Shown: positions 46,691 through 64,000, counted from the first letter of the stretch. The stretch: DNA of 64,000 bases from an uncultured Ignavibacteriota bacterium (GCA_903884005.1 CAISDA010000026.1:1-64000); one strand, 5' to 3'. The notes: generated by a model from the sequence alone, not told the origin. Numbers and translations: made by a program.

Positions 46691-47839
46691 TTAATCACCT
46701 TGCATGGCCATGACGTCGATTTCTTTTGAATCAACGATGTCCAGCAGTCGATCGATATTGCGGAAGCACCAATTCACTGTATTGCTCAAGACAATGATGC
46801 AGGTTTTGTCCTCGGGACGGCGGACGCATAACGACGTGTATCCCCTCCACCATCCGGCGTGATACTCAATTTTTTTTTCGCCTCCGTCCCTGGCAATGCG
46901 CCAGCCATATCCATAATTGTTATCGTCTTTAAATTTGCGGTGCAGCGGTGTGAACGCCTCATCAAGTGTCGACTGTTTCACAAGACGGGCCGTGTATAAT
47001 GCCTGATCCCACTTAAACAAGTCATCCACCGTCGAATACACACCCTTATCCCCGACAACGCCGCTTAAATAATCTTCGTGGGCGGGTGCGGTATTCTTAT
47101 TGTATCCGGTCGTTTGAAAGAGAAGACGGTTCCTCTTGTTCGGATTGAACACGGTCGTATTGTTCATTCCAAGGGGCGAGAATACCTGCTGCTGCATAAA
47201 ATCGTCGAACGACAGCCCCGATACGTGTTCAACAATGGAAGCCAGGAGTGCATAGCCGGTATTGCTGTATTTGTACCGCCGATCCGGTGTAAATTCAAGT
47301 CTCGGATGGCGCGCGATCAGCATTTGCACGAGGCCCGAATTGGTGAGGTATTCATTTTTATTCTTCCAATATCGGCCGGCGAAATTCATATAATCCGGTA
47401 TTCCCGAACGGTGCCCAAGCAGATGCCGGATCGTGACGTCGGAGTACGGAAGCGCGGGAAAATATTTCCGAATGGGATCGTTGAAGTCAAGCCTCCCTTG
47501 GTCATGCAGGATCATAATGGCGACAGACGTAAATTGTTTCGACACGGACGCAAGCTGAAAGGCCGATTCAATGAGCAGCGGAGCCCTCGATCGCAGGTCA
47601 GCATAGCCGAACGCATGCTTATACAATACTTTTCCGTTATGCGATAAGAGCACATTGCCGTTGAATCCCTCTTCGGCTGCGAGCGTTGCAAATAGCCCGC
47701 CGAACCGATCAGTGATGAGCGCTTGCCTGCGTTCTTCAGCGAGAGCGGCGGTAAGAGAAGCGGGAGTGGGAGGTTCGCCGGGATGCAGATGTATCGCTGC
47801 CCAAAAATACAACACGGAAATAACTATATTCGCCATCAT
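46691..47839 (-). CDS. Secreted serine hydrolase, class C beta-lactamase family
   Basis: The 382-residue protein has an N-terminal hydrophobic segment (VISVLYFWAAIHL), the SxxK motif with nucleophile Ser98 (ASVSKQFTS), the YxN motif in YKYSNTGYALL and HLLGHRSGIPDY. Members include D-alanyl-D-alanine carboxypeptidases, esterases and beta-lactamases; which one applies cannot be told. Near the end IEYHAGWWRGYTSL stands where the HxG/KTG motif is expected. Confidence 0.88.
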   Translation of the reverse strand: MMANIVISVLYFWAAIHLHPGEPPTPASLTAALAEERRQALITDRFGGLFATLAAEEGFNGNVLLSHNGKVLYKHAFGYADLRSRAPLLIESAFQLASVSKQFTSVAIMILHDQGRLDFNDPIRKYFPALPYSDVTIRHLLGHRSGIPDYMNFAGRYWKNKNEYLTNSGLVQMLIARHPRLEFTPDRRYKYSNTGYALLASIVEHVSGLSFDDFMQQQVFSPLGMNNTTVFNPNKRNRLLFQTTGYNKNTAPAHEDYLSGVVGDKGVYSTVDDLFKWDQALYTARLVKQSTLDEAFTPLHRKFKDDNNYGYGWRIARDGGEKKIEYHAGWWRGYTSLCVRRPEDKTCIIVLSNTVNWCFRNIDRLLDIVDSKEIDVMAMQGD

Positions 47840-48071: not shown

Positions 48072-49718
48072 TCAGGTGACATGTTCCAATATCTTGACGG
48101 GTTCATAATTGCGACCGCAGTACCGGAGATTCTTCAATTTTTCAAGAAGGACATCGGAGAGTTCGGAATTCCTCCGCACTAAAATAACATTGCTCGAATT
48201 GTGCAGATCGTCCGCCAGCACCATACCGGATTTCAATTCGTCGAACGCAACGGTCCGTATAACAAAACCATCCAGAAGCCGTCTCACTTCAGCTTCCAGG
48301 GCGCCGAGGAGGAGGGGGTTAAATTGCCCGACTTTCTTTTCCATTTCTTCGAGTGCCTGCTGTTGTGTGCTTCCGGCTTGAATGCGATTGTCATAATCGA
48401 AAACGATACGTATGAAATCACTGATGATGTCGGGATCGGTCTTGGAATGATAATCGCCGAATTGATTTTGTATGCTTTCGGCGACCTGTTCAAGCCTCGG
48501 GATGCTGGAGATGAAGCGGGCTGCCACTTTCGGGTGGGAATTGAAAATACAGTTTTCCTGACTCGTTAATTTATTGCCGGCTTGTTTTTTTTGGACGATG
48601 TCGGACGGGATGACGGCGCAGCCAAGCTGGGACAAGAGGACGCCGATCTCAATTTCCCATGCGTTTTCAAGGCCAAGCCTCACGGCCATTTTTTTCGCGA
48701 GATTGCGCGCGCGAATCGTTTGGGCGAACGTCTCCGGATTTGTCATTGCAAGAATATCGATGAGCATCCTGATGCTCCCCTTGAGTGTTTCATCGAGCAA
48801 TTGTCCTTTTGCATTCAACGCATCCTTCAACGATTCTTCCGAATCATGCAACGCGAGGTGTGTCTTCACGCGCGAAAGCAGTTCCTCTTTCCTAAAAGGC
48901 TTTACAATATAATCCGCACCCCCTGAATGAAAGCCGCGGATAATATCGATGGGCTCCGTTCGACTTGTTAAAAAGATGATGGGAATATGGTCCATATTTC
49001 CATTGTCCTTAAGCCGGCGACACACTTCATACCCATCCATCGACGGCATGACGACGTCCAGCAATATGAGGCTTGGACGGACGAGTTGAGTTGCTTCGAG
49101 CACATCGTGCCCGCTCGTGAACGGGAACATGGTAATATTGTTTTCGGCGAACAAGTGGGCGATGATGGTGAGATTGTCCTCATTATCGTCTACGGCAAAA
49201 ACTGCATTGTGAACGCTTTCAAACGTCCCGTGAGCAATAAGTGTATCCCATTGCATCCGGGCATTCATCAATGCAGTCTGGATCACACTCTCGTCACGCG
49301 TAAGCCCGAGGCATTGCGGCATTTGCCTTCCCACATCATCCGCTGCAATGATATGCCCGGTGCGTGCATCCGAAATATTGTTATGGTTTTTTTGCCTGAC
49401 ACACAGAGCAGTTTTTCCTTGAACCCCCCTGTCAATTGTCGAGCCGTCAATATTATTATGTACAAGAGAGAGCAGCATGTCGCCGCTGCTGCGAATAACA
49501 TCAACATAGTGCCTCAATGTCGGATCAGTGATCGCCCCCTTAAGGATCTCGCTAAATCCGATGATGGCATTCAACCTCGTGTTAAATTCATGGCTGATCA
49601 GGCGCATGAAAACATCCGTCTCGTAATGCGGGCGACGTGCATCATGGACTGCATTCGGATGCTGGATCGCTGTCACGTCGTCGTCGACGTCAACTGCTGC
49701 CTTGTAATAGTGTTCCAT
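48072..49718 (-). CDS. Kinase-like receiver protein with degenerate HD-GYP domain and no ATPase
   Basis: The 548-residue product begins with a HisKA-like helix (ISHEFNTRLNAIIGFSEIL, His 43) but no HATPase domain follows. Residues 172-290 are a receiver (VFAVDDNEDN, Asp 221 in LILLDVVMPSMDGYEVC, DYIVKPFRKEEL). Residues about 310-470 resemble an HD-GYP domain (ARNLAKKMAVRLGLENAWEI, then GVLLSQLGCAVIPSDI) in which the expected HD pair is replaced by Ser-Gln 363-364, so catalysis is doubtful. The end (about 490-548) is a small domain (SGMVLADDLHNSSNVILVRR) often found after HD-GYP-type regulators. It may act by binding partners. Confidence 0.8.
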   Translation of the reverse strand: MEHYYKAAVDVDDDVTAIQHPNAVHDARRPHYETDVFMRLISHEFNTRLNAIIGFSEILKGAITDPTLRHYVDVIRSSGDMLLSLVHNNIDGSTIDRGVQGKTALCVRQKNHNNISDARTGHIIAADDVGRQMPQCLGLTRDESVIQTALMNARMQWDTLIAHGTFESVHNAVFAVDDNEDNLTIIAHLFAENNITMFPFTSGHDVLEATQLVRPSLILLDVVMPSMDGYEVCRRLKDNGNMDHIPIIFLTSRTEPIDIIRGFHSGGADYIVKPFRKEELLSRVKTHLALHDSEESLKDALNAKGQLLDETLKGSIRMLIDILAMTNPETFAQTIRARNLAKKMAVRLGLENAWEIEIGVLLSQLGCAVIPSDIVQKKQAGNKLTSQENCIFNSHPKVAARFISSIPRLEQVAESIQNQFGDYHSKTDPDIISDFIRIVFDYDNRIQAGSTQQQALEEMEKKVGQFNPLLLGALEAEVRRLLDGFVIRTVAFDELKSGMVLADDLHNSSNVILVRRNSELSDVLLEKLKNLRYCGRNYEPVKILEHVT

Positions 49719-50036: not shown

Positions 50037-50109
50037 GGACAGGTAGCTCAGTCGGTAGAGCAACGGCCTGAAAAGCCGTGTGTCGCCAGTTCGATTCTGG
50101 CCCTGTCCA
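50037..50109 (+). tRNA. tRNA-Phe (GAA anticodon)
   Basis: Full cloverleaf of 73 bases: acceptor GGACAGG with CCTGTCC, D arm AGCTCAGTCGGTAGAGC, anticodon stem ACGGC/GCCGT around CTGAAAA (anticodon GAA) and T arm CCAGTTCGATTCTGG. Discriminator A; no CCA encoded. An integrase remnant follows about 100 bases downstream, as expected where elements insert at tRNA genes. Confidence 0.96.
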
Positions 50110-50551: not shown

Positions 50552-50866
50552 ATGCCTGTGATAAAACCGATTTCCGACCTGCGCAACAAAGCCAATAAAA
50601 TTTCAGAGCTTGTGCACGAGCTCAATGAACCGATCTTCATCACGAAGAATGGTGAAGGAGATATGGTGGTTATGTCAATAGCTCAGTACAGCGATATGCA
50701 GCGAAAACTGGAGATCTATAGCAAACTCGCGGTAGCACAAGGGCAAAAAGCTGCCGGGGATACTGGCCGGCCTTTGGAACAGGTCATGAAAGACTTGAGA
50801 AAGAGACTACGTGAGTGCGCGCAATTACATTCGATTAATATAAGGGGAGTATTATTGTTTGCCTAA
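50552..50866 (+). CDS. Phd/YefM-family antitoxin, partner missing
   Basis: ATG 50552 follows TTAGGAGCATCAA. The 104-residue product has the Phd/YefM pattern: IKPISDLRNKANKISELVHE, NEPIFITKNGEGDMVVMSIA, QYSDMQRKLEIYSKLAVAQ. This family binds its own operator and neutralises RelE/Doc-type toxins. No toxin gene follows. The last 15 residues or so (AQLHSINIRGVLLFA) look unlike the family, so the end may be changed by the deletion that removed the toxin. Confidence 0.82.
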   Translation: MPVIKPISDLRNKANKISELVHELNEPIFITKNGEGDMVVMSIAQYSDMQRKLEIYSKLAVAQGQKAAGDTGRPLEQVMKDLRKRLRECAQLHSINIRGVLLFA

Positions 50867-51691: not shown

Positions 51692-51925
51692 ATAAAAGGG
51701 TTCAGCTATCTGCTGTTGTTGCCCATTGTATCATTGACATTCAGCAACTGCGCCCAAAAGGTGGATGGGGGAATGATCCCCGTCATCACATCTTCTGAAG
51801 ATGCCAGGATTGTGGATATTGTGCTCGATACATGCCCTGCCGCATGTCATATCGTCGTTCATCAGCACGCCTCTGCGTTCGCCGGCACAGAAATGGGCGT
51901 TTGTGCGGGAGTAATTTTCGGTTGA
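51692..51925 (+). pseudogene. Possible small lipoprotein gene with lost start codon
   Basis: An AAGGAGG site at 51680 is followed at the proper distance by ATA AAA GGG rather than ATG. The frame reads KGFSYLLLLPIVSLTFSNCA, a lipoprotein signal with a Cys, then about 55 residues to a TGA. Upstream ATG 51641 would give a non-typical extension. The end overlaps the convergent MFS gene by 64 bases. It might be a fragment; weak evidence. Confidence 0.3.
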
Positions 51926-53145
51926 AAGAATAGCCCGACAAGCACAATCCCGACAACTTCCAGAGCAACGCTCAGGGCGAAGAGTGGAGCGTAGCCGATG
52001 GATGACGCGAGGACACCGCTCATGATTTCATAGATCGAGGATCCGACCGCAAGCACGGATACCTGTATGGCAAAGTCCGTTGCCGCGTTCGATTTGCGTG
52101 TAAAATCCATGAAGATCGAGAAGATCAAGGTCCATTTGAAGCTGGTGGAAAGTCCCACGAGAACACAGATAACGTAGAGTGCGCTGTTCCCTGTCACGTT
52201 CAGTGCCGGCAGGATGAACAACCCGACAGCAAATGTATTTATCAGACCGAAGACGATGAGATTCGCCTTCCGTCCGAAAAAATTCAAGATGGGCGGACAG
52301 ATGGCTGCGCCGATGGCCACGGATACGGGACGCACGGTGCCGAGCATGAGGCCGATTGAGTCAAGCGAGAGCCCCTTGTCGACGAGCATTGGTCTGACCA
52401 TCGCGCTGATCATCATTTCTCCAATCACATAGAGATTGATGAGCAGAAGCCAGCGGCGCAGCGCGGAGGATTTCAATGGAGCGAAACTGCTGAGGATCGT
52501 CACACTGGCGCGTGTTTCCGGCATCGGCGGTTCCTTGAAGAACAGGAGCATGAACGTGGCAGCGATCATCAGAGGAAACGTCAAGAGCAAGGTCACCGTG
52601 TACCCGATCGTGGAGACAAGGATCAGCATGCTGCCGCCACAGATGCTGCCGATTGTCATGCCTATGGTCGCGAAACTGTTGCCACGCGGCCGTTCCGCTT
52701 CCTTGAGACAGCGGACCGCGAGGCCATTGGTAGCGATCCATTGCGTAGAAACCGAAGCCGCAAAGACGAACCCCAGTCCCATGATCCACCAAAACTGATC
52801 TTTGAAGTCGAGAAACGCCATGATGGCACCGGTCGCCGTGCACACAAGCTGCGAAGCCACGAGCCAGGACTTGTAGTGTCCGAATCTCCGGTTGCCGTAC
52901 GCATCGACATACGGAGCCCAGAGGAATTTCAGCACTACCGGCAGCGATAAGAGGCCGAAGAGTCCGACGTACTCCAGCGGAGCCCCGCTCTGGCGCAGCA
53001 TCACCGGAAAGACAAGCGGGAAGAACGACGTCGGCAGGACCGACGAAACGTACAAAAAAAACAGGACGACGAACTTGTAGCGTCGTTGCGGAAACTCCTG
53101 CTCGTCCATTTCGGATGCCGGGACAACGGGCCCTTCCGATATCAT
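51862..53145 (-). CDS. MFS permease, AmpG/siderophore-permease-like
   Basis: The 427-residue protein has about 12 membrane helices, the FPLVFPVMLRQSGAPLEYVG opening and the FLWAPYVDAYGNRRFGHYKS loop, and ATDFAIQVSVLAVGSSIYE in the second half, as in AmpG- and RhtX/FptX-type permeases that bring muropeptides or siderophores through the inner membrane. It overlaps the TonB receptor gene by four bases, so it is probably the inner-membrane step for the same ligand. A close paralogue lies at the end of the window (62790-64000). Confidence 0.85.
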   Translation of the reverse strand: MISEGPVVPASEMDEQEFPQRRYKFVVLFFLYVSSVLPTSFFPLVFPVMLRQSGAPLEYVGLFGLLSLPVVLKFLWAPYVDAYGNRRFGHYKSWLVASQLVCTATGAIMAFLDFKDQFWWIMGLGFVFAASVSTQWIATNGLAVRCLKEAERPRGNSFATIGMTIGSICGGSMLILVSTIGYTVTLLLTFPLMIAATFMLLFFKEPPMPETRASVTILSSFAPLKSSALRRWLLLINLYVIGEMMISAMVRPMLVDKGLSLDSIGLMLGTVRPVSVAIGAAICPPILNFFGRKANLIVFGLINTFAVGLFILPALNVTGNSALYVICVLVGLSTSFKWTLIFSIFMDFTRKSNAATDFAIQVSVLAVGSSIYEIMSGVLASSIGYAPLFALSVALEVVGIVLVGLFFQPKITPAQTPISVPANAEAC

Positions 53146-55604
53146 AGAGTATAACGAATGGTAAATGTCGTTCTGAACGGCGCATTCGGCATGACAGGGA
53201 TCGGATAGGTGGGGTCACCAGCACCGCCGATATTGCCGGAAGTGTACGACAGCACGTTGGACAAATTATACAGATTCAGCTGAAATCGCATTCGGGCAAT
53301 CTCATAGTATGCAGTCGCGTCATAGCTGGTGTATCCCGGCAGCTGCGCTTCGTTGGCATCGTTGACCCAGACAGCACTTTTGAAGGTGACTCCCGCACCG
53401 ATTCCCATCCCCCTGAAAAAACCGTCCCCCACTTCGTATAGCATCCAAAGGTTGCCGCTGTACTTTGGCGTGCCGAATCGTTCTTTGCCGTCCACGATCA
53501 GCTTCTTGGGATTGGTGAATTTCATCGTCTGGTTGTTGTACCCAGCCATAATCTTCAGATTCGAGACGACCTCCCCCACGACATCGATGTCGAAACCTTG
53601 GGCGTCTTCCTTTCCGATGTTGTAGTAAAACAAATATGGAGCCGACCCATTCGGATTGTTCTCCCAGGTGATGACGTCGTATTTTTTGATGAGGTACACC
53701 GCCGTGGTGACCAGCGCGCGTCCGCCGAAGAGTTCCAACTTGACGCCCACCTCCGTCTGGTAGGCGCGCTCCGGCCGCAGGGAATCAGGAATATCCCAAA
53801 GACCATAGTCTGCGCCCGGCGACTGATAGCTGCCCATGTAACTGGCATAGAGCGAAAGGTTGTCGCGCATTTCATACAGTAATCCGAATCGCGGTGCGAT
53901 GCCATTCGATTTGTTGTACGTCGAAGTCGGATCGGTATTGAATGACGCCAACTGCGTGACATCGATGGTATTCCGTTCGTAGCGCCCTCCTATGAGAAGA
54001 TGCCACCGTTGTTCGAAGGTGATGAGATCCTGCACGGCAAATCCGTAGTCTTTTGAATTTGCAAGCATTTCCTCATGCGGAGAAACAGGAAGCTCCACTC
54101 TGCTCCGCTCACCGGTCACAGGATTCAATACGCCCCAGGGCGAGTAGTCGAGGATGTAGCGCGTGTCGATCTGAAGAAGATCCATCACGGCAAGAATACG
54201 GTGGGAAACGTTCATCCCCAACAGCTGATGACTCACATGAAATACATTTTCGATGCGCGTCGAGAAATCGGTCCGCTTGAAATCGAGATAGTCGATCGGC
54301 CGAACCGTCCAATCTGCCGGGAACAACCCTTCCGGGAATCCCGGCGGTGTCGCCCCTTGGTATGTGTAATACCAGTCAAAGACATCTGTGCTCAGTTCGT
54401 GAGTCTGTTCGTATGAAGCGGAGCCGCGCAGGGTCCACGCGGGACTGAACACGTGTTCCACTTCAGCCGTAGTCCGAACCTGCCTCTGCGAATTAATGTC
54501 CACGTCTTCGCCAAAGAAATAGTTCCGGCTCGAGATAGGGGCCAGGCTCGCGGTGAGTGCACCCGAGGATGTGATGGAAGGAAGCATGAGCACTCCGCGA
54601 TCCGGCGTGTATTCGGATTTCGAAAATTCTCCAAGCAACCGGATATGCGTATTGTCCGACACGTTGAGACTGAACGATGGCTTCAGGAAAAAGGTATTCG
54701 TTTTGACGACGTCCCGATAGCTCTTGCTCTTGTCATACGTGCCATCGAAACGGTAGGCCAGGACGTCATCGATCAACGCACCTGTTGCAGATACACCGAC
54801 CTTATACTGTTGAAAACTTCCGGTCATGGCTTCCAGCGAATACTCCGACGCCATGCTGGGTTTCTTGGAAATGAAATTGATGATCCCTCCCGGTTCCCCC
54901 CTGCCGTATAGAATGGCTGAAGGCCCTTTGAGCACTTCGATCCGATCAAGGCTGGTCATGTCTATGGGAAGGCTGCCGCCCGGGGACACCATGTCGCATC
55001 CCCCCATCCTGAATCCATCCTTGAAAATCGAAGCATTGAACCCCCGGATATTTGCGTTGAGCGGTTGATTAGCTCCGCCGAATTCCACGGCCACTCCGCT
55101 GATATTCTTCAATGCATCGGTAACGTTCAGGATGTTCTGATCTTCCAACAGCTTGCCCGTTATCTGGCCTGTGCTAAGCGGAAGCTCCATCATTGGAGCA
55201 TCGATGCGCGTAGCCGAAAAGTTGTCCCCTGATGTATAGCTTTCCCGATACCCTGTTACGATGACATCCCCCATTCCGATCGGAGTCGGCTGGAGACTAA
55301 TCTCGACGTTTGCGTTGCCGTCACCGACGACAACGGTCTTCCGCGCAGTATTGAAACCCACGAGACTGGCCTGGAGAAGGTGCGTACCCGCGGCGATATT
55401 CGTGAGAGAGAACGTTCCGTCGGACTTGGTAATACATCCGATGCCTTTGTCGTTGAGAACGACGTTAACATTGGCGAGAGATGATTGATCATCGCGGTCA
55501 ACGATCCGGCCTGTTATGCTGCCCGTTTGCGCGAATACCGATGAGCATAGGAACACATACCATGTGATGATTGGAAGAGTGAGGCGAGTAAGCAAGGATT
55601 TCAT
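53142..55604 (-). CDS. TonB-dependent siderophore-type receptor
   Basis: ATG 55604 (MKSLLTRLTLPIITWYVFLC) gives a signal peptide; the frame is open to 55760. After it comes a carboxypeptidase-regulatory-like domain (GSITGRIVDRDDQSSLANVN), a plug (LNVTDALKNISGVAVEFGGA, GFMG-like region FKDGFRMGG, DRIEVLKGPSAILYGRGEPG) and a 22-strand barrel with the C-terminal aromatic-type end FRTTFTIRYTL. Total 820 residues. The plug motifs fit iron-siderophore receptors. It is followed by an MFS permease gene overlapping by four bases. Confidence 0.93.
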   Translation of the reverse strand: MKSLLTRLTLPIITWYVFLCSSVFAQTGSITGRIVDRDDQSSLANVNVVLNDKGIGCITKSDGTFSLTNIAAGTHLLQASLVGFNTARKTVVVGDGNANVEISLQPTPIGMGDVIVTGYRESYTSGDNFSATRIDAPMMELPLSTGQITGKLLEDQNILNVTDALKNISGVAVEFGGANQPLNANIRGFNASIFKDGFRMGGCDMVSPGGSLPIDMTSLDRIEVLKGPSAILYGRGEPGGIINFISKKPSMASEYSLEAMTGSFQQYKVGVSATGALIDDVLAYRFDGTYDKSKSYRDVVKTNTFFLKPSFSLNVSDNTHIRLLGEFSKSEYTPDRGVLMLPSITSSGALTASLAPISSRNYFFGEDVDINSQRQVRTTAEVEHVFSPAWTLRGSASYEQTHELSTDVFDWYYTYQGATPPGFPEGLFPADWTVRPIDYLDFKRTDFSTRIENVFHVSHQLLGMNVSHRILAVMDLLQIDTRYILDYSPWGVLNPVTGERSRVELPVSPHEEMLANSKDYGFAVQDLITFEQRWHLLIGGRYERNTIDVTQLASFNTDPTSTYNKSNGIAPRFGLLYEMRDNLSLYASYMGSYQSPGADYGLWDIPDSLRPERAYQTEVGVKLELFGGRALVTTAVYLIKKYDVITWENNPNGSAPYLFYYNIGKEDAQGFDIDVVGEVVSNLKIMAGYNNQTMKFTNPKKLIVDGKERFGTPKYSGNLWMLYEVGDGFFRGMGIGAGVTFKSAVWVNDANEAQLPGYTSYDATAYYEIARMRFQLNLYNLSNVLSYTSGNIGGAGDPTYPIPVMPNAPFRTTFTIRYTL

Positions 55605-55738
55605 AGTTGATAGGTATTGTGAACTGCGTTTTGCTGCAAGGCGACCAACGCAGGGAGCGAAAGAGGGAGCACACTTATACACCACGCTTTTTAATTTAAC
55701 AATATCGCTTATGGCTGCAGCGGAATCAAGCACAATCC

Positions 55739-55760
55739 GATCATTTTTGATCTTGATCAT
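55739..55760. promoter_or_regulatory. Palindrome upstream of the receptor gene
   Basis: GATCATTTTTGATC followed by TTGATCAT, about 135 bases before the receptor ATG, makes a dyad with repeated TGATC half-sites. A metal-type repressor site is possible, but it does not match a known Fur box well. Confidence 0.3.
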
Positions 55761-55824
55761 GGTTGCCGTTATTACGGAGAGAGATCAGATGAGACTCGAT
55801 AGAACCCTTTTACCTTGATCACTG

Positions 55825-56649
55825 TTAGATTGCCAAATTGATCCCCACCGATTGACCGGTGTCTACCTCGCTTGCTCCGACAAAGCCGGCTTCAGTAGAG
55901 AGCATATGCGAATATTCAAGCATGATCTTCAGATACGAAGATATCGCGGTGGAAAGCCGTAGAGTAATATTTGTTGAGTAACGTTTTGTCTCGACTAAAT
56001 TTCTGAGATGCACAAACGATTCATCGAAGCCGACCGCCGGTGAAATGCCAATATGATAGGACTGTGAAATGTGCATACCATTGTATGCTCCTTCTTTCAT
56101 GCCGAAGTACGATATAGGAACGGTGTACGTCGGAAACACTCTTCCGCCCGCCACAAACACATTGAATTGCTGTGCCGGCGTGATGGCCCAGCGCGTTCCA
56201 ACACCCACATACGGCAGGTATTGATTTTCCAGCATATGCAGCTCATTTTTTTCCCACATCACTCCGGCCTCACCCGTCAGATACGACTGGAAATCCCACT
56301 CAACCTTTGTCTGGAACAAGAAATAGGACATGGAATTTTCTACCGGGCCTTGTTTTGTGCGCTGCTTATTATACATGACGGAAACGGATCCGGTCGCGTG
56401 ATCTTTTCGCAGATCGATCTCCGTGCCGCACTGAATCATATTCGACTCGAAATTGCCGGTCATGTTATTGTACGCCAAAGTTCCTTCGCCGTGAAACAGG
56501 AGCCGGTTTAAACTGTCCGGACTGGTAAAGGGGCTGTTCCTCCACCAGTTTTCAGGGACAGGCGCTGAAGCAGGAGTTTGTGATTGAAGATCGGCAGAAA
56601 AAATCGAGAAAAGCGGAATGAGCACCGCCAACATCAGGCATCGGTTCAT
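55825..56649 (-). CDS. Predicted outer-membrane protein
   Basis: The 274-residue product has a signal peptide (MNRCLMLAVLIPLFSIFSA), then alternating aromatic-rich strands (GEGTLAYNNMTGNFESNM, GSVSVMYNKQRTKQGPVE, GVMWEKNELHMLENQYLPYV, VFVAGGRVFPTYTVPISYFG) and a C-terminal SVGINLAI. It resembles small beta-barrels of the DUF481/nutrient-porin type; the exact family is uncertain. A terminator just upstream separates it from the DUF697 units. Confidence 0.65.
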   Translation of the reverse strand: MNRCLMLAVLIPLFSIFSADLQSQTPASAPVPENWWRNSPFTSPDSLNRLLFHGEGTLAYNNMTGNFESNMIQCGTEIDLRKDHATGSVSVMYNKQRTKQGPVENSMSYFLFQTKVEWDFQSYLTGEAGVMWEKNELHMLENQYLPYVGVGTRWAITPAQQFNVFVAGGRVFPTYTVPISYFGMKEGAYNGMHISQSYHIGISPAVGFDESFVHLRNLVETKRYSTNITLRLSTAISSYLKIMLEYSHMLSTEAGFVGASEVDTGQSVGINLAI

Positions 56650-56667
56650 GAGTATTCTTTCAAGAGG

Positions 56668-56705
56668 GAAAAAACAGCATGCCTCATTAACACGCGAGGC
56701 ATGCT
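56668..56705 (-). terminator. Intrinsic terminator at the end of the DUF697 units
   Basis: AGCATGCCTC (56676-56685) pairs with GAGGCATGCT (56696-56705), loop of ten, and on the minus strand a GTTTTTT follows. It ends the long minus-strand transport transcript just after the broken small gene. Confidence 0.75.
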
Positions 56706-56706
56706 A

Positions 56707-56796
56707 TTAGAATATTATGCAACTCCAACAAAGTATTGCGGTCTGGTCGTTAAGTCCAACCAACACGGCCAGACCGATCCAGATATATGCGACCAT
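56707..56796 (-). pseudogene. Decayed copy of the small membrane protein
   Basis: The 29-codon frame starts MVAYIWIGLAVLVGL, like MPFYFWIGMAVVVGI of the intact 60-residue gene at 57537-57719, and then changes to unrelated sequence and stops. It begins two bases after the DUF697 stop, exactly as in the other unit. It is the remnant of a duplicated gene. Confidence 0.65.
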
Positions 56797-56798
56797 CG

Positions 56799-57308
56799 TT
56801 ATGCTTTCGCAGGTTCAGTCTTCAAGGAGGACACAGCCGCTTTTCCCTGCTTGTACATATCGGAAAAATACGTTTTCGCATTGTTCACATCGAAGGTCAG
56901 AAAGTTTCCACCCGACTCGAACTGTTTGATAAAGACTTTTCCGATGGCCCAGGTAAATGCTCCCGAGTAGAGGGGCATCGAAACACTGCCGAGGAATCCG
57001 ATGAAGGGAACCGATTTCATGAAGCTCGCCGCGTAGCGCTGCGCAAGGTACCCGGCAGAAAGACCGCCGGTCAATGCCGCAATAATTGATTTTGCCGCAT
57101 TTTGCGAGAACGGTATTTGATATACGTCCGCAAGATCGCTCAACATCTTCAGTTGAAATCCTGAAACGGCGGCCATATCCAGCATTGGCACGGGGATCAG
57201 TCCTGCTCCCATCGAATAGAGGGAATAGGTATTCACAACAGAATTGGCCCGTATAAGATTATTCTCTTCTGGTACTGCGGGTTGCGGTTCGTTCGGAATA
57301 TCTTTCAT
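56799..57308 (-). CDS. DUF697-family protein, second copy
   Basis: The 169-residue protein has the DUF697 (PF05128-like) core: YSLYSMGAGLIPVPMLDMAA, GFQLKMLSDLADVYQIPFSQ, KSIIAALTGGLSAGYLAQRY, SGAFTWAIGKVFIKQFESGG. It has hydrophobic helical segments, so it is probably membrane-associated. From residue 22 on it differs from the other copy at only about five positions, so the duplication is recent; the N-terminal 20 residues differ more. ATG 57308 follows GGAGGCATGT. Function of the family is unknown. Confidence 0.82.
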   Translation of the reverse strand: MKDIPNEPQPAVPEENNLIRANSVVNTYSLYSMGAGLIPVPMLDMAAVSGFQLKMLSDLADVYQIPFSQNAAKSIIAALTGGLSAGYLAQRYAASFMKSVPFIGFLGSVSMPLYSGAFTWAIGKVFIKQFESGGNFLTFDVNNAKTYFSDMYKQGKAAVSSLKTEPAKA

Positions 57309-57469
57309 ACATGCCTCCAGAGGTAGTATTGGTGAATTGATCGACGTAGAACGATGAATTGGAATTTATGTCCATCAGGAATTTATCGAAATTTTCTTTA
57401 AAGAGTATACGAAAAAAATATTTATTTTACTTTCGGTACAAACAGCAGAAAAGGTTTTTGCAAATGAAT

Positions 57470-57503
57470 ATAGCACACCCCCACAGCATTCAGGGTATGC
57501 TAT
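57470..57503 (-). terminator. Hairpin between the two DUF697 units
   Basis: ATAGCACACCC (57470-57480) pairs with GGGTATGCTAT (57493-57503) with one mismatch. The equivalent hairpin after the other copy has a T-run, this one does not, so it may be an older, leaky terminator that lets transcription pass to the second unit. Confidence 0.45.
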
Positions 57504-57536
57504 GCATATTTATGAAAATCAAACCAGGCATCGCTG

Positions 57537-57719
57537 TCAGGCCGCTTTGCTCATGCTCTTCTGAAATTTCCGATCGATCGAAATCAACGCAAAAATGACG
57601 ACCGGAACCAATGGGCTGAACAGCATGGAAAGGACGAAATTTCCCCAAAAGCCGAAGAAATTTTTCCGTCCCAATATCCCGACCACAACGGCCATACCGA
57701 TCCAAAAATAGAATGGCAT
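57537..57719 (-). CDS. 60-residue small membrane protein
   Basis: MPFYFWIGMAVVVGILGRKN ... FGFWGNFVLSMLFSPLVPVV ... a basic tail (DRKFQKSMSKAA). Two membrane helices are predicted by eye. It begins two bases after the DUF697 gene stop, so translational coupling is likely. The pairing DUF697 plus this protein recurs in the second unit, where the small gene is broken. Family not recognised. Confidence 0.7.
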   Translation of the reverse strand: MPFYFWIGMAVVVGILGRKNFFGFWGNFVLSMLFSPLVPVVIFALISIDRKFQKSMSKAA

Positions 57720-57721
57720 AA

Positions 57722-58231
57722 TTATGCTTTCGCGAGTTCTGTCTTGAGGGACGACACCGCTGCTTTCCCCTGCTTGTACATATCGGAAAAATACGTTTTC
57801 GCATTGTTCACATCGAAGGTCAGAAAGTTTCCACCCGACTCGAACTGTTTGATAAAGACTTTTCCGATGGCCCAGGTAAACGCTCCCGAGTAGAGGGGCA
57901 TCGAAACACTGCCGAGGATGCCGAGAAAGGGAACCGATTTCATGAAGCTCGCCGCGTAGCGCTGCGCCAGATATCCGGTAGAAAGACCGCCGGTCAATGC
58001 GGCGATAATCGATTTTGCCGCATTTTCTGAAAACGGTATTTGATAAACGTCCGCAAGATCGCTCAACATCTTCAGTTGAAATCCTGAAACGGCCGCCATG
58101 TCCAGCATTGGCACGGGGATCAGTCCTGCCCCCATCGAATACAGGGAATAGGTATTCACAACAGAATTGGCTTGTACCACTTTATTCTGTTCAGGAACCA
58201 CGGGTGTTGTTACTTTTGGAATTTCTTTCAT
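57722..58231 (-). CDS. DUF697-family protein, first copy
   Basis: The 169-residue product from ATG 58231 (after GGAGGTATCT; the frame is open to 58360) matches the other copy nearly throughout: YSLYSMGAGLIPVPMLDMAA, QIPFSENAAKSIIAAL, GYLAQRYAASFMKSVPFLG, VFIKQFESGGNFLTF. DUF697 proteins occur with GTPase-like or envelope-stress genes, but their role is unsettled. Here it follows the Cache sensor gene by 95 bases and is directly followed by the small membrane protein gene. Confidence 0.82.
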   Translation of the reverse strand: MKEIPKVTTPVVPEQNKVVQANSVVNTYSLYSMGAGLIPVPMLDMAAVSGFQLKMLSDLADVYQIPFSENAAKSIIAALTGGLSTGYLAQRYAASFMKSVPFLGILGSVSMPLYSGAFTWAIGKVFIKQFESGGNFLTFDVNNAKTYFSDMYKQGKAAVSSLKTELAKA

Positions 58232-58326
58232 AGATACCTCCAGCGTAATATAGGTGAAAGTCTCATCGTATAGCGACGGATTGTAATGTTCCTCTGATAA
58301 CAAAGACAGTTTGTAAATTTTATTTT

Positions 58327-59238
58327 TTAGTCTTCCTGTACAACAAGCAGAACACCCCATTTATTTGCAGGGATGGGCATATAATAAATCCACCAATCTT
58401 TTTTCCCTCCCAAATTGCCGGCGTTCACGAAACCGGATTTCCCTAGCCGCAAATTTCTCCCGATTTTCCGTAAAACGGGCAGATTCATCTCCTCCGCAAG
58501 GGTGTAGATAGATTCATTATACGCCCATTGCGGGTCTGGAGCACTTATGACCGTGCCGGCTTCAGACAGCAAAACGGTGTAACTCGTTTCAGACATCTTA
58601 ATGGAGGATACTAATTTCGACAACCAGTCTAAGGAAATATCGACGGTGACTATTCCCTGCATCGATTCTTTTTTTCCATCATACGAATAGAATGGAACCG
58701 CATACGTGGCCATGATAATATTTCCTCCGCTGAACCCGACATCATAGTATGGTTCGATCCAGGCAGGCTTGTTCAATTTTTTTGGTATCAAATACCAATC
58801 GCTGCTGAAATAGAACCCCGAAGAATCTGTTGGGTCAACATAGACCGTTGTTCCGTTCTTTTTATACAAATACGGTGCATAGAACATGGAATCTTTTTCG
58901 AACGAATACGGTTCAAAGGCGATACACGAACCGAATACTTCATCGTTGTTATCGACGACCGCATCGAGTAGAAACCGCAAATGATCTTTTTTCGGGCTCG
59001 AAAATTCCAGCACATACGCTAAATTCTGGGGTATTTGTTGGATCGAAAGAATGATGTTTTGTATTTTATTCACTTCTCCGGCGAGTTTGGCTTCCGCCTC
59101 ATCCCTGATATGCTTCTTCCACCGGTATTCGGTGTACACGCCTCCGAACTCAATAGCCGCGACGACAACCGCTACTGCAGCCAGGAGGATGAGTGAATAC
59201 AGGATCGGTCTGGATATTTTAAAATTTATTTTGGACAT
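58327..59238 (-). CDS. Membrane-anchored Cache sensor without an output domain
   Basis: From ATG 59238 (MSKINFKISRPILYSLILLA) the 303-residue protein has one membrane helix (residues 9-30) and a double Cache domain: VFGSCIAFEPYSFEKDSMFY, YFSSDWYLIPKKLNKPAWIE, GGNIIMATYAVPFYSYDGKK, IVTVDISLDWLSKLVSSIK, YYMPIPANKWGVLLVVQED. It stops where a second membrane helix and a kinase, phosphatase or methyl-accepting part would normally follow. It starts one base after the binding-protein stop, so it may sense the same ligand in the periplasm. Confidence 0.8.
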   Translation of the reverse strand: MSKINFKISRPILYSLILLAAVAVVVAAIEFGGVYTEYRWKKHIRDEAEAKLAGEVNKIQNIILSIQQIPQNLAYVLEFSSPKKDHLRFLLDAVVDNNDEVFGSCIAFEPYSFEKDSMFYAPYLYKKNGTTVYVDPTDSSGFYFSSDWYLIPKKLNKPAWIEPYYDVGFSGGNIIMATYAVPFYSYDGKKESMQGIVTVDISLDWLSKLVSSIKMSETSYTVLLSEAGTVISAPDPQWAYNESIYTLAEEMNLPVLRKIGRNLRLGKSGFVNAGNLGGKKDWWIYYMPIPANKWGVLLVVQED

Positions 59239-59239
59239 A

Positions 59240-60256
59240 TCACTTGAGATCTTTATAGAAATCAACGTACTGCGGCTTATTAGTGATAAAGTTATTCTCA
59301 AAGAGAAAATTCGTCAGATTCTCAAAATCTGTTTTTAAAAGATTCCCTTCCCGGACTTTTTTGCCGGACGATTGGATCATATTTTTCATGCCATTTAACA
59401 TCCAGCGAGCATGCGACCTGTTCGAAGAGACCTTCGCGAGTATTTGATATTTATGAATTACCTCCAGCGTTTCCTCCGGATGTGCCAGAGCATACGTCCA
59501 TCCTTCAATAGATGCCCCGACAAATTTCCTGCATCGCTCCGGGTCCGCCTTCAGAGTGGTTTCCATGCAGTAAATTCCATCTTCGGGAAAATTCAATCCG
59601 TAATCATTGAAATAAAACGTCGCAATTTCGTCAGGATTGATTCCGGAATTGATCAGAGTCTTGTACTCATTATAATGCATCATCACGGAAATATCGACGG
59701 CATCCTGGAGAAGGACGTTGTTTGCGGTATTAAATGGCACGATCTCTGCCTCGATGCCGTGCTTCTTTAAAAAACCTGCTGTCAATTCTTTCGCAACCGA
59801 TCTCCATACCCCGATCTTTTTACCGTTGAAATCCTTGAGCGTTTGTATTCCCGATGTTTTTTTCGCAGCGAACATGATGCCGCTGCGCTGGAAGATCTGC
59901 CCGATGTTCACAAGCTTGGTCCCTTGTGCCCGCTCCATCACTCCGGTGTAGAGAAACAACACGCCGAAATCAATTTCTCCGCGTTTCAGCGATGCCGTCA
60001 CGTCATGCTCATAGCCGCCGTTCATGATGGTGACATCGAGCCCGTATTTTTCATAGATGCCCTTCTCCTTCGCCATGTAGTACCCGGCGAATTGCGGCTG
60101 AGGCACCCACAACGGAAGAAATGTCGCCTTTTTCACTGCTGTCTTCTGCGCATGGGTTGCAGCACAGGGCAGGAGAAGAAAAAATCCCAACATCAACATG
60201 ATGTTCTTCATAGTTCCAGCTGTCGTCATCGTAAATGACCGATTATTTTTTTTCAT
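59240..60256 (-). CDS. NMT1/THI5-like periplasmic substrate-binding protein
   Basis: The 338-residue protein has a signal peptide within about residues 16-36 (MKNIMLMLGFFLLLPCAATH) and the SsuA/THI5 fold: LPLWVPQPQFAGYYMAKEKG, YGLDVTIMNGGYEHDVTASL, GEIDFGVLFLYTGVMERAQG, TLKDFNGKKIGVW, EEIAT-like FYFNDYGLNFPEDGIYCMET. ABC importers for taurine, thiamine precursors or similar small compounds use such proteins, but no matching permease lies in the window. The start might be ATG 60211. It overlaps the SPFH gene by 14 bases. Confidence 0.85.
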   Translation of the reverse strand: MKKNNRSFTMTTAGTMKNIMLMLGFFLLLPCAATHAQKTAVKKATFLPLWVPQPQFAGYYMAKEKGIYEKYGLDVTIMNGGYEHDVTASLKRGEIDFGVLFLYTGVMERAQGTKLVNIGQIFQRSGIMFAAKKTSGIQTLKDFNGKKIGVWRSVAKELTAGFLKKHGIEAEIVPFNTANNVLLQDAVDISVMMHYNEYKTLINSGINPDEIATFYFNDYGLNFPEDGIYCMETTLKADPERCRKFVGASIEGWTYALAHPEETLEVIHKYQILAKVSSNRSHARWMLNGMKNMIQSSGKKVREGNLLKTDFENLTNFLFENNFITNKPQYVDFYKDLK

Positions 60257-61109
60257 CGGCGTTTAATAATAATGGCAGATCGTTCTTGCCACTGCCCATG
60301 ATGATGATCTTGGCGTTATTCGACTTTGCAAATTCGGAAGTGACTTCCAACCCTTTCCATTTCAGAATGGGGATTTTCGACACTTCTTCAAACTGCCGGA
60401 TGCCGTCGGCCTCGATGATTTTTCGCCGCTTTTCTTTTCCTTCCGTGATGAGCTTGTAGTCGAACTCGAACGATAACTGCTCCGCAACCATTTTCCGCTC
60501 GATTGAATTGGACACAAGGTCCGGCAGCGATATTTTCCTGATCAGATAATCATCCATGACAACGTTTTTCTCGAGCAATTGCTTTCCCAGATAAAATTTG
60601 ATCGTCGATTGAATGATCAGCGTCGACATCTTATAGAGTTGCTCCGGCGTGAAGTTGCCGATGATGGCCATCGACGCCGCTTCGACTTCATTCTTGACAA
60701 ATGTCTCCGCATAGTCGACCCCCAGCTTCTGATGAATCGTCGGGATCGAATCTTTAAGAGCAGAGAAGCGGTACGAAAACTCCACCCGAACGGTCAGACC
60801 TTCAGACGTAAGAATATTCAACGTATCATTTTGGGTCTGAAATTGCGTTGAATAAATATACATCTTATCCCAGGGCCAGATGAGATGGACGCCTTCGTCA
60901 TATTTCTCGCCAAGTTCTGTACCGTTGAACCTCGACCATCGTATGCCTTGTTGTCCCGAATAAATCGATACGACCATGTCCTTCCAAAAAAAGACAAACA
61001 GCAGGATGGCGATGAGCGTGGCCATGATGATCTTCAACGAGTGACGCTGCCATACTCTTTTTATTGCACTCTTTATTCGTGCGTAGATGTGTGCGAATTT
61101 TTCTTTCAT
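60243..61109 (-). CDS. SPFH/Band 7 (prohibitin-like) membrane protein
   Basis: The 288-residue protein has one N-terminal helix (LKIIMATLIAILLFVFFW) and an SPFH domain: VVSIYSGQQGIRWSRFNGTE, VHLIWPWDKMYIYSTQFQTQ, NILTSEGLTVRVEFSYRFSA, VEAASMAIIGNFTPEQLYKM, followed by a helical region (EGKEKRRKIIEADGIRQFEE). SPFH proteins build membrane microdomains or hold protease/transport complexes. It lies between the ABC exporter and the binding-protein gene. Confidence 0.88.
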   Translation of the reverse strand: MKEKFAHIYARIKSAIKRVWQRHSLKIIMATLIAILLFVFFWKDMVVSIYSGQQGIRWSRFNGTELGEKYDEGVHLIWPWDKMYIYSTQFQTQNDTLNILTSEGLTVRVEFSYRFSALKDSIPTIHQKLGVDYAETFVKNEVEAASMAIIGNFTPEQLYKMSTLIIQSTIKFYLGKQLLEKNVVMDDYLIRKISLPDLVSNSIERKMVAEQLSFEFDYKLITEGKEKRRKIIEADGIRQFEEVSKIPILKWKGLEVTSEFAKSNNAKIIIMGSGKNDLPLLLNADEKK

Positions 61110-61152
61110 AGCGTCCCTTGGATCAACTTGACAACCATATCGATCACGATCA

Positions 61153-62793
61153 TTATTTTTTCTTTTTCTTCTCGTCGCTCACCACGGTTCCATAATCCAT
61201 CTTTATGACCCGGTCGGCATATTTAAAATATCGATCGTCGTGACTGACCGCGATGACGGTCTTTCCTTGCTTCTTTAAGTCTTTCAGAATCACTTCATAG
61301 AAAATCTTCCGATATTGCGGATCCTGATCGGCCGCCCATTCGTCGAATACATAGATCTGCCGGTTTTCAAGGAGCGCAACGATCATCGCCAGACGCTTGC
61401 GCTGCCCCGTCGAGAGATCCAGTTCGGTAAACCAGCCGTCCCGATACTCGGTTTTCTTATCGATCTCCATGAAGCGCAGCAATTCGGCGACTTTCTCTGT
61501 ATCGATATGTTCCATCCCGTATAATCTGTGGAACAGGTGGAAATCGGAGAAAATGGCGGAGAACATTTCGCGGTATCTCAGAATGTCCGTCTGATCGACC
61601 TGCTTGTCGTCGATAAAGACCTTCCCTTTTTTCGGGAAGTAGAGCATCGTCAGCAACTTTAATAACGTCGTTTTTCCACAGCCGTTGCCGCCAATCAGGA
61701 ACACGGTTTCGCCCGACCGAATATTCAAATTGAGAGGACCGAGGGAAAAGGCCTCATGTCCGTCGTCGTCGTGGTAGTGAAATTCCACGTCTTCGAACCG
61801 GATGTTCTTGAAACCGGTTTGCACGACCGGCTCCTCGCCGGACTGCAGTTCATGCAATTCCACCGATTTGTCCAGCTCCGCCTCCAGCTCGTAAATATAC
61901 CCGATGGCCATCCGGACCTTGTCCAGCAACGGCATCAGGCCCACAACGGCGCCGACCGGACCGAACATAAACAAGACCGCCACCGTGACATCCGGCACGA
62001 CATCACGGTACGTTGTGCTGAATCGCGGCAGAATGAACACGACGGCTCCCATCAGAACCATATATGCCGCCTGCGGAATAATAATATCCTCCGCATACTT
62101 GCCTCCGATCACACCCTTCAAGGATTTCAGTTCTTCGGAAATTTTCTTGATGAAGGCGGCGAGGGCGGAGCTCCTGCTTTTTCGCAGTTTTACTTCTTTT
62201 ATTCCTTCGAGAATATCGGTGAGCGCCTTAAAAAAACCGATTTCTGTCTTGTTGATTTCGACGAGCATCGGTACGAACCGCTTCGTCCTCTGCAAGTAAT
62301 AAAATATTCCGGCAGCGTTGATCGTCACAACAATAAAAAATGCAACGACCGAAAGCGTGAGTATATAGATCAGCACAACAACGAGCATGACCGACGATTG
62401 CAATGCAGTAACGATCGGCAGGGCAAATTGAGAGATCACATTCGCTTCCTGCGTCAGACGGTTGTAGATCTCCGCCTCTCCGATCTGCTCAAGCTTCAAC
62501 AGATCCGCGCGGCGCACCTTATCGGCCACACGCGTCCGGATATTATGAATGATATCCTCGATGAACGCCATGCCGTTCGTCATGTTGTACTTTTGCGCGA
62601 TCACATACAGAACGATCACGATGATGAACATGATCAATTGGCGCGTGCTCTCTTCGTCCGCCGAAATTTTCTTGGATGCGGCATTGATGATGGTCAACAC
62701 CATTGCATTCGCAAGCCCGGCGACCGTCGCCATGACCAGGATAGACCGTACCGGCTTGGTCGACTCCTTCTTAATGAAACCAACGACGTTCAT
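61153..62793 (-). CDS. Cyclic-peptide/PvdE-type ABC exporter (fused membrane and ATPase domains)
   Basis: The 546-residue half-transporter has six membrane helices (residues about 15-300) and a nucleotide-binding domain: Walker A in FLIGGNGCGKTTLLKLLTML (about 366), signature LDLSTGQRKRLAMIVALLEN (about 461), Walker B IYVFDEWAADQDPQYRKIFY and the H-loop VIAVSHDDRYFKYADRVIKM. The layout and LSTGQ signature match the cyclic peptide exporter family (SyrD, PvdE), which moves peptide siderophores and related products. It overlaps the MFS gene by four bases. Confidence 0.88.
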   Translation of the reverse strand: MNVVGFIKKESTKPVRSILVMATVAGLANAMVLTIINAASKKISADEESTRQLIMFIIVIVLYVIAQKYNMTNGMAFIEDIIHNIRTRVADKVRRADLLKLEQIGEAEIYNRLTQEANVISQFALPIVTALQSSVMLVVVLIYILTLSVVAFFIVVTINAAGIFYYLQRTKRFVPMLVEINKTEIGFFKALTDILEGIKEVKLRKSRSSALAAFIKKISEELKSLKGVIGGKYAEDIIIPQAAYMVLMGAVVFILPRFSTTYRDVVPDVTVAVLFMFGPVGAVVGLMPLLDKVRMAIGYIYELEAELDKSVELHELQSGEEPVVQTGFKNIRFEDVEFHYHDDDGHEAFSLGPLNLNIRSGETVFLIGGNGCGKTTLLKLLTMLYFPKKGKVFIDDKQVDQTDILRYREMFSAIFSDFHLFHRLYGMEHIDTEKVAELLRFMEIDKKTEYRDGWFTELDLSTGQRKRLAMIVALLENRQIYVFDEWAADQDPQYRKIFYEVILKDLKKQGKTVIAVSHDDRYFKYADRVIKMDYGTVVSDEKKKKK

Positions 62794-64000
62794 CCCATCG
62801 CCTCCGCTTCAATGGCAGCACCGCTGCTCCATGGCTCAACGGCCGGCTCCGGCACAACGTCCTGGTAGTAGAGTCCGATGAGAAGAATTCCTATCAAATC
62901 GAGAACAATGCTCAGACCAAAGAGCGGAGCATAGCCCAGCCACGAGGCGAAAAGTCCGCTGGCCATTTCGAACAGACTCGTTCCGATGGACAGCACGGAG
63001 ACTTGAATGGCAAAATCCGTCGCGGCGAATTCCTTCCGCGAATGATCCATGAAAATCGAATATGTCAGCGTCCATTTAAAACTGTTGACAAATCCGACCA
63101 AGGCAAAAATCAAATACAGAAAATTATTGCCCCCAATGTTCATGGCTGGAAGAATGAAGAGCCCCAGCATCAAGGCATTCACGAGGCCGAACGATACCAA
63201 GCTCTTTTTTCTGGAGAACAGTGTAATGATGGATGAGCAGACGATCGCTCCGATAGTCCCAAAGACCGGGCGAATTGTTCCAAGCATCAGCCCGATCGTA
63301 TCGAGGGAAAGTCCTTTGTCCACGAGCATCGGGCGGACCATTGCGATGATCATTGAATCGCCGATGATGCAGAGATTAATGAGGATGAGCCATCGCCGCA
63401 TCGAAGCGGATTTCAACGGCGCAAAGCTGCTCAGGATGCCCACCTTCCCCGCAGCCACGGCATGATGGGGTTCTTTAAAAAACAGAAGCATGATACTCGC
63501 AACGATGAGAAGAACGTACGTCAAGAGCATCGTCGAGGTATAGCCGATGCGTCCGACGAGCATGAGCATGCTGCCACCGGTGATCGTTCCAATCGCCATG
63601 CCGATCGCAGCAAGGCTATTCCCCCGCGGACGCTCCTTCTCAGAGAGACATTGTATCGCCAAACCGTTGACCGCGATCCATTGTGTGGAAACCGAAATGA
63701 CAAATACAAACCCGAGTCCCATGATCCACCAGAATTGATCGGTGAAATTGAGGAATGCCATGGTGCTCCCAATCGCTGTGCAGACTAGCTGCGTGGCAAT
63801 GAGCCATGTTTTGTAATGACCAAATTTTTTGTTCCCATACTTGTCCACATACGGAGCCCACAGGAATTTCAATACCAGTGGAATCGTGAAGAGTCCAAAC
63901 AATCCGATACGCTCCAGCGGTGCACCGCTTTGACGGAGCATCACAGGAAAAACGATCGGAAAAAACATTGTCGGCACAAAAGAAGCAACGTATAAAAAGA
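62790..64000 (-). CDS. MFS permease paralogue, incomplete at the window edge
   Basis: The visible 395-plus residues (the frame stays open to the window end) match the permease at 51862-53145: FPIVFPVMLRQSGAPLERIG, FLWAPYVDKYGNKKFGHYKT, NGLAIQCLSEKERPRGNSLA, ATDFAIQVSVLSIGTSLFE. About 12 helices. The N-terminus with the start lies beyond 64000. It leads the minus-strand transport operon and is coupled to the ABC exporter by a four-base overlap. Confidence 0.85.
   Translation of the reverse strand, partial: FLYVASFVPTMFFPIVFPVMLRQSGAPLERIGLFGLFTIPLVLKFLWAPYVDKYGNKKFGHYKTWLIATQLVCTAIGSTMAFLNFTDQFWWIMGLGFVFVISVSTQWIAVNGLAIQCLSEKERPRGNSLAAIGMAIGTITGGSMLMLVGRIGYTSTMLLTYVLLIVASIMLLFFKEPHHAVAAGKVGILSSFAPLKSASMRRWLILINLCIIGDSMIIAMVRPMLVDKGLSLDTIGLMLGTIRPVFGTIGAIVCSSIITLFSRKKSLVSFGLVNALMLGLFILPAMNIGGNNFLYLIFALVGFVNSFKWTLTYSIFMDHSRKEFAATDFAIQVSVLSIGTSLFEMASGLFASWLGYAPLFGLSIVLDLIGILLIGLYYQDVVPEPAVEPWSSGAAIEAEAMG

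Follow-up and report, generated by a model that had tools for sequence, protein, structure and literature searches.

Several described systems share parts with the locus analysed here. In the pyoverdine system, the siderophore is exported by the ABC transporter PvdE (PMC6206403), FpvA is the receptor, FpvC and FpvF are binding proteins, of which FpvF binds apo-pyoverdine, and the pump PvdRT-OpmQ serves recycling (PMC6954188). FptX is a single-subunit siderophore permease (PMC10866019), and Bordetella petrii carries a transporter-only 'cheater' locus without a working NRPS (PMC12971057). An SPFH protein is encoded near the glycopeptide ABC exporter Tba (PMC11960670), and SPFH proteins have been linked to envelope stress. 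Receptors assisted by binding proteins have been reviewed as a class (PMC9602780). We analysed a 64,000-nucleotide stretch (the window) that forms part of contig C26 in the draft genome of an uncultured Ignavibacteriota bacterium (G000; 4.53 Mb in 89 contigs, completeness 100), in which a locus for export and re-uptake of a small molecule had been proposed. Pfam and NCBIfam scans confirmed all family assignments, with every named component at the position originally given. The genes all lie on the minus strand, in the order receptor 2, MFS1, ABC exporter, SPFH, NMT1, Cache, DUF697a, DUF697b, DUF481, receptor 1 and MFS2. In agreement with the original prediction, no named system of this composition was found in the open-licence literature searched, an earlier description elsewhere being possible.

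The central genes start with that of an ABC exporter of the cyclic-peptide (PvdE/SyrD/YojI) type with fused TMD and NBD (61153-62793), which passes the cyclic-peptide export model TIGR01194 (349.8 bits for a cut-off of 286.2). After a spacing of 43 bp comes the gene of an SPFH/Band_7 protein with a single N-terminal hydrophobic stretch (60243-61109; PF01145), followed by that of an NMT1/THI5-type periplasmic binding protein with an apparent signal sequence (59240-60256; PF09084, 146 bits). The latter almost abuts the gene of a single-TM dCache protein (58327-59238; MCP-like_PDC_1, PF22673, 85.6 bits) that lacks a second TM, HAMP and any output domain, and two DUF697 membrane proteins follow, copy a (57722-58231; PF05128, 32.6 bits) and copy b (56799-57308; PF05128, 33.4 bits). 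The DUF697 copies are 91% identical, and a 300-base DNA repeat of 90% identity (window 56756-57055 and 57679-57978), which arose by recent duplication in tandem or by gene conversion, spans the 3' parts of both genes. Starts were re-set by homology for Cache (59238), DUF697a (58231, by alignment conservation), receptor 1 (55604) and MFS1 (64082). An apparent Cache/DUF697a overlap was rejected as the product of a false start, the conserved start at 58231 leaving a gap of 95 bp. The short overlaps by which most of the genes had first been said to be coupled are few (receptor 2/MFS1, 1 bp by coordinates; MFS1/ABC, 4 bp; SPFH/NMT1, 14 bp; receptor 1/MFS2, 4 bp). On the 3' side of DUF697b, a terminator-like hairpin on the same strand (56673-56708; a 14-pair stem and T tail, identified as a consensus match) may divide DUF481, receptor 1 and MFS2 from the remaining genes. 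Sigma-70-like promoter matches at the locus were no commoner than in shuffled sequences, a riboswitch search of the locus and its relatives retrieved no TPP or other riboswitch, and no Fur-like site stood out upstream of receptor 2, where the best scored 11/19 against a background reaching 15/19.

Genes of siderophore-type uptake lie at both ends of the locus. Downstream of the DUF481 outer-membrane-type protein (55825-56649; PF04338, 31.9 bits), receptor 1 (53142-55604) is a TonB-dependent siderophore-type receptor with a CarboxypepD_reg domain that passes TIGR01783 (268.9 bits for a cut-off of 223.5), and it is followed by the permease MFS2 (51862-53145), which matches MFS_1. At the other end, the AmpG/RhtX-FptX-like permease MFS1 occupies 62790-64000 in the window (MFS_1, 110 bits) with its true start at contig position 64082. 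The two permeases had been taken to bracket the locus; they are indeed paralogues (66% identity), but the locus is longer, since reading on to the contig end revealed receptor 2, a paralogous TonB receptor (contig 64082-66550, beyond the window), 62% identical to receptor 1. These identities indicate duplication of one receptor and MFS pair, and the position of receptor 2 next to the MFS1 start defines receptor plus MFS as the duplicated unit. Neither permease reached the cut-off of the siderophore MFS model TIGR02718 (RhtX/FptX; cut-off 356; MFS2 152.8 and MFS1 120.6 bits) or that of the muropeptide model TIGR00901 (AmpG; cut-off 350; 140.1 and 127 bits, respectively). The arrangement recalls the pyochelin and rhizobactin pairs FptA-FptX and RhtA-RhtX, in which a TonB receptor also stands beside a single-subunit MFS of the same broad family (PMC10866019), but here the permeases fall below the RhtX/FptX cut-off, and two copies of the pair accompany an export module. 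With the pyoverdine system the locus shares a TonB receptor of siderophore type and a peptide-type exporter of the PvdE class that has a periplasmic binding protein nearby (PMC6206403, PMC6954188). It differs in that no NRPS, FpvG-type reductase or recycling pump was seen at the locus, MFS import permeases replace periplasmic iron release, and SPFH, dCache and DUF697 proteins are extra. Among 381 genomes of the class, relatives of receptor 2 (E below 1e-90) were retrieved only from G000, G078 and G650, in all of which receptor 2, MFS1 and ABC genes overlap or abut as one unit. Receptor, MFS and DUF481 are each single copy in G078, and the same genes occur across the two contigs of G650. A plain receptor/permease siderophore cassette was considered and rejected, as the core recurs without receptors.

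We searched genomes with the SPFH protein and read the neighbourhoods of its matches. The order ABC-SPFH-NMT1-Cache-DUF697 is kept in four other Ignavibacteria genomes, that is, G078, G263, UBA1304 (counted as one with G609) and, split over two contigs, G650 (counted as one with metabat2.334), so the arrangement is more than chance, and the refuting outcome named with the original prediction, absence of the order from all other genomes, did not occur. More widely, the four gene types ABC, SPFH, binding protein and DUF697 were found side by side with related sequences, a set that we refer to as the module. Strong SPFH (E below 1e-50) and strong ABC (E below 1e-95) matches singled out the identical 15 of 296 phylum genomes, all 15 of which also have DUF697. 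Since 11 of these genomes belong to one genus, addition of contigs from Daejeonella and Neomarinimicrobiota brings the count to about five independent lineages. The SPFH proteins of the modules, that of the window included, form one starred group of the tree (support 98/94), whose sole outsider is a Thiomargarita protein (L037) encoded at a contig end. Greater length (about 212-247 aa) sets the DUF697 proteins of families f26 and f32 apart, and those of them with neighbourhoods read had no NRPS alongside, so DUF697 alone is no marker of the module. A module combining SPFH, DUF697 and NRPS was not found described in the open-licence literature searched.

In the relatives, the module is a neighbour of peptide synthesis. 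In G263 and UBA1304, the ABC gene comes directly after NRPS genes, whose open frames span about 6000 and 3200 residues. Genes for DUF481, a free acyltransferase and another DUF697 follow further on, and the opposite side has a type II thioesterase gene and, in G263, also one for a phosphopantetheinyl transferase (PPTase). The stretches read of these two clusters contain no TonB receptor and no obvious metallophore genes, and the ancestral product may thus not have been a siderophore. In genus g65 (eleven genomes; module loci L042-L044, L051, L058 and L085-L090), the NRPS gene stands between a tandem pair of exporters from that ABC family and a set made up of SPFH, Peripla_BP_6 protein and DUF697; for one of its genomes, G264, the stretches read comprise these genes on short contigs but not the NRPS. 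Another member of this genus, G048, encodes FMO, a protein of green sulfur bacteria, to which an NRPS cluster with exporters in tandem can thus be ascribed; no study of that cluster or its product was found in the open-licence literature searched. The cluster of G123 comprises NRPS, DUF697, thioesterase, ABC, an SBP_bac_6 protein and SPFH. The Daejeonella contig has DUF697, ABC and SPFH near a carrier-domain acyl-AMP ligase and a ketosynthase-like protein, and that of Neomarinimicrobiota contains SPFH, Peripla_BP_6, thioesterase, PPTase and DUF481. Collectively, the NRPS clusters of Ignavibacteria, green sulfur bacteria and other Bacteroidota have the same core genes as the locus, in partly the same order, but they carry an NRPS and lack a TonB receptor of this family.

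The synthetase itself was not detected in the host. A search for NRPS condensation (C) domains returned none in G000 and in the two module-bearing genomes nearest to it, G078 and G650; the same search gave 7 for G263 as well as 7 above the cut-off within a single stretch of G609, and was positive in G123 and G048. Likewise, the NRPS-independent siderophore synthetase IucA/IucC was absent from G000, G078 and G263 and positive in control genomes. Biosynthetic genes, which the original prediction had advised looking for past position 64000, do not appear in the 8.5 kb up to the contig end. Absence of the NRPS rests on drafts, and a gap among the 89 contigs of G000 could hide one, but three genomes agree; the comparison genomes are also mostly drafts, with open reading frames called mechanically. 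Of 209 genomes of the class, 13 contain C domains. Those over the cut-off in G263, G123, G048 and G609 all map inside the NRPS cluster of the module, and the six NRPS-bearing genomes tested from elsewhere in the class are devoid of the DUF697, which indicates that the module is no general companion of NRPSs. As the NRPS was found only without the receptor and the receptor only without C domains, module plus NRPS and module plus receptor/MFS are alternatives in this class. At the level of sequence, these comparisons establish a conserved module that is linked to an NRPS in relatives and devoid of it here, and a receptor confined to NRPS-less loci. Because the NRPS accompanies the module in other lineages, its loss on the branch to G000, G078 and G650 is the simplest account, and we infer loss rather than gain. 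Bordetella petrii similarly retains transport genes without a working NRPS (PMC12971057); the present locus differs from that one in having no NRPS remnant, a duplicated receptor and permease, and the additional SPFH/NMT1/dCache/DUF697 core.

The Cache protein had been described as a sensor without output, correctly so, and its full-length homologues disclose where it came from. At 12 further loci of the class (L095-L106), an NMT1 protein (about 35-45% identical) precedes a large full-length dCache protein; the outputs of the six that were scanned are SpoIIE phosphatase in three, histidine kinase in two and chemotaxis (MCP) in one. This recurrent pairing identifies NMT1 and dCache as a binding protein and its receptor, a family of which no description was found in the open-licence literature searched. 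TorT-TorS and XylFII-LytS are comparable in that a binding-protein gene adjoins that of a membrane receptor ectodomain (class reviewed in PMC9602780), but the receptor of the module has lost TM2, HAMP and output. Indeed, when the module Cache proteins of five genomes were aligned with the 12 full-length receptors, they ended just ahead of TM2; the protein of the window has TM1 and a complete dCache only, out of the arrangement TM1-dCache-TM2-output. Truncation by assembly or frameshift was rejected because the end is identical in the five genomes. Output-less NMT1 and output-less Cache proteins fall into one 100/100 clade each, which makes the truncation an old and fixed one. Both the origin of the pair from a receptor system and its truncation can thus be read from these alignments and trees. 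The structural model of the window Cache (pLDDT 86) has a complete dCache with one N-terminal helix and is nearest to the mmHK1S kinase ectodomains (3lib, 3li9). That of NMT1 is nearest to thiamin-binding 4nmy, FAMP-binding 3ix1 and Thi5, a resemblance that suggests the fold class rather than the ligand. A role of NMT1 as an importer component was discarded, as no ABC import permease or ATPase adjoins it in the locus and its relatives pair with receptors. In other lineages, the binding proteins of the module belong to unrelated families (Peripla_BP_6, SBP_bac_6), have an apparent uncleaved N-terminal anchor (read by eye) and have no dCache gene beside them, a pattern suggesting that NMT1 is anchored in the membrane by the dCache protein.

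We then compared the receptor type of the locus (G000, G078 and G650) with the NRPS type (G263 and UBA1304). ABC exporters are 49-51% identical between types and 75-86% within, and the exporter of the window has orthologues of 75-82% identity in NRPS-less loci and of about 50% beside an NRPS. DUF481 identities were 29-32% between and 58-68% within types, those of DUF697 51-57% and 63-90%, and those of SPFH 69-71% and 82-84%, respectively. NMT1 (63-75% between, 63-74% within) and Cache (60-73% and 61-75%), in contrast, showed no such split. The contrast between types is large, though five genomes are few. Exporter and DUF481 have therefore diverged along with the type, and NMT1 and Cache have not, which argues against capture of the exported molecule by NMT1, the function that the original prediction had given to the THI5-like protein. 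The exported product is probably not captured by NMT1, and these identities argue for a pair that binds something common to both types or is a structural part.

We favour, with a probability of about 0.5, the explanation that the locus is the export and membrane module of an NRPS cluster that lost its synthetase and became coupled to a duplicated siderophore-receptor and MFS pair, that is, a consumer locus, whose host may live on peptides made by other bacteria. The two TonB receptors, together with the MFS permeases, would let in peptide siderophores of other organisms, and the cyclic-peptide ABC exporter would send the peptide, iron-free or unwanted, back to the periplasm. SPFH and DUF697 would collect the transport proteins at a single inner-membrane site, and NMT1 on the dCache ectodomain would be a fixed periplasmic ligand-responsive subunit, neither a signalling receptor nor a peptide-capture protein. 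In this scheme, we infer the siderophore substrate, the direction of transport, the scaffold role and the docking of NMT1 on dCache. As a tentative generalization, in which we place less confidence, bacterial peptide clusters might have an undescribed inner-membrane export platform, in which the peptide ABC exporter is surrounded by DUF697, a scaffold of SPFH proteins and a binding protein held at the membrane. In Ignavibacteria this binding protein would be held by a receptor ectodomain shorn of its signalling half, a signalling pair thereby turned into a transporter subunit, and one lineage would have swapped the synthetase for receptors.

A full loop of export, capture and sensing for a molecule made by the host itself, with non-NRPS biosynthesis genes elsewhere in the genome, seems unlikely. 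Exporter and receptors together do look like a producer locus, and the module of relatives sits with biosynthesis, but neither C domains nor IucA/C were found in G000 and G078, the 8.5 kb to the contig end are free of biosynthetic genes, and NMT1 and Cache are indifferent to the presence of an NRPS. Of the originally proposed export and re-uptake, the peptide-type ABC exporter, the siderophore-type uptake genes and the conserved order are supported, and synthesis of the molecule by the host is not. We are more doubtful still about self-protection against foreign peptides, whereby the ABC transporter would expel them, SPFH and DUF697 would stabilise the inner membrane, and receptor and MFS would be an unrelated iron-uptake insertion. 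The peptide type of the exporter, the tie of SPFH proteins to envelope stress in the literature and the possible terminator that sets DUF481, receptor 1 and MFS2 apart are in line with it; the unit of overlapping or abutting receptor 2, MFS1 and ABC genes in G000, G078 and G650, and the occurrence of the receptor only together with the module, are not.

The NMT1 model could also evoke a cofactor-scavenging site, in which the NMT1-dCache pair would respond to a thiamin- or pyrimidine-type compound and the rest would handle cofactor-like molecules. Proximity of the model to thiamin- and FAMP-binding proteins and Thi5, and conservation of the pair in either NRPS state, speak for this account, which we nevertheless deem improbable, as the locus and its relatives have no riboswitch of the TPP or any other class, no import permease is present, the receptor belongs to a siderophore family, and an unrelated class of binding protein fills the place of NMT1 in other lineages. 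Hardly credible is the reading of the locus as the remains of an NRPS cluster in decay, with no present function: the synthetase is absent, as a relic would have it, but all frames are open, core genes are 61-82% conserved across two families, and receptor, MFS and DUF697 were later duplicated.

The proposed consumer locus and its producer counterparts form a clean natural comparison between two versions of one module, by which parts that would recognise the peptide (exporter, DUF481) may be told from those that would not (NMT1-dCache). The uncharacterised family DUF697 shares a concrete context with one SPFH subgroup, namely the peptide export clusters of Ignavibacteria, green sulfur bacteria and other Bacteroidota, and a matching SPFH fragment also occurs in Neomarinimicrobiota, beside the thioesterase and PPTase genes. 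Reuse of a receptor ectodomain without its output would, if true, extend Cache domains to a new role.

Further observations concern single genes. A second module-type DUF697 in G165 (L084:10207-10743), 92% identical to that of G048, has neither NRPS nor SPFH alongside and adjoins apparent SbcD/SMC-type genes. Elsewhere in the window, a Phd/YefM-type antitoxin is encoded at 50552-50866, near a tRNA gene (50037-50109), with no adjacent toxin identified, and positions 48072-49718 encode a HisKA domain without HATPase match followed by receiver and HD domains, that is, an ATPase-less kinase part fused to an HD output. About 4 kb past the end of the locus lies a PF00144 serine hydrolase gene (window 46691-47839). 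Another such gene (contig 66736-68052) and one for a PhyH dioxygenase (68584-69579) are divergently oriented beside receptor 2. PF00144-like proteins are also encoded near the module in G078, Daejeonella, Neomarinimicrobiota and G123, and this recurrence suggests that the PF00144-like protein may be an additional module member.
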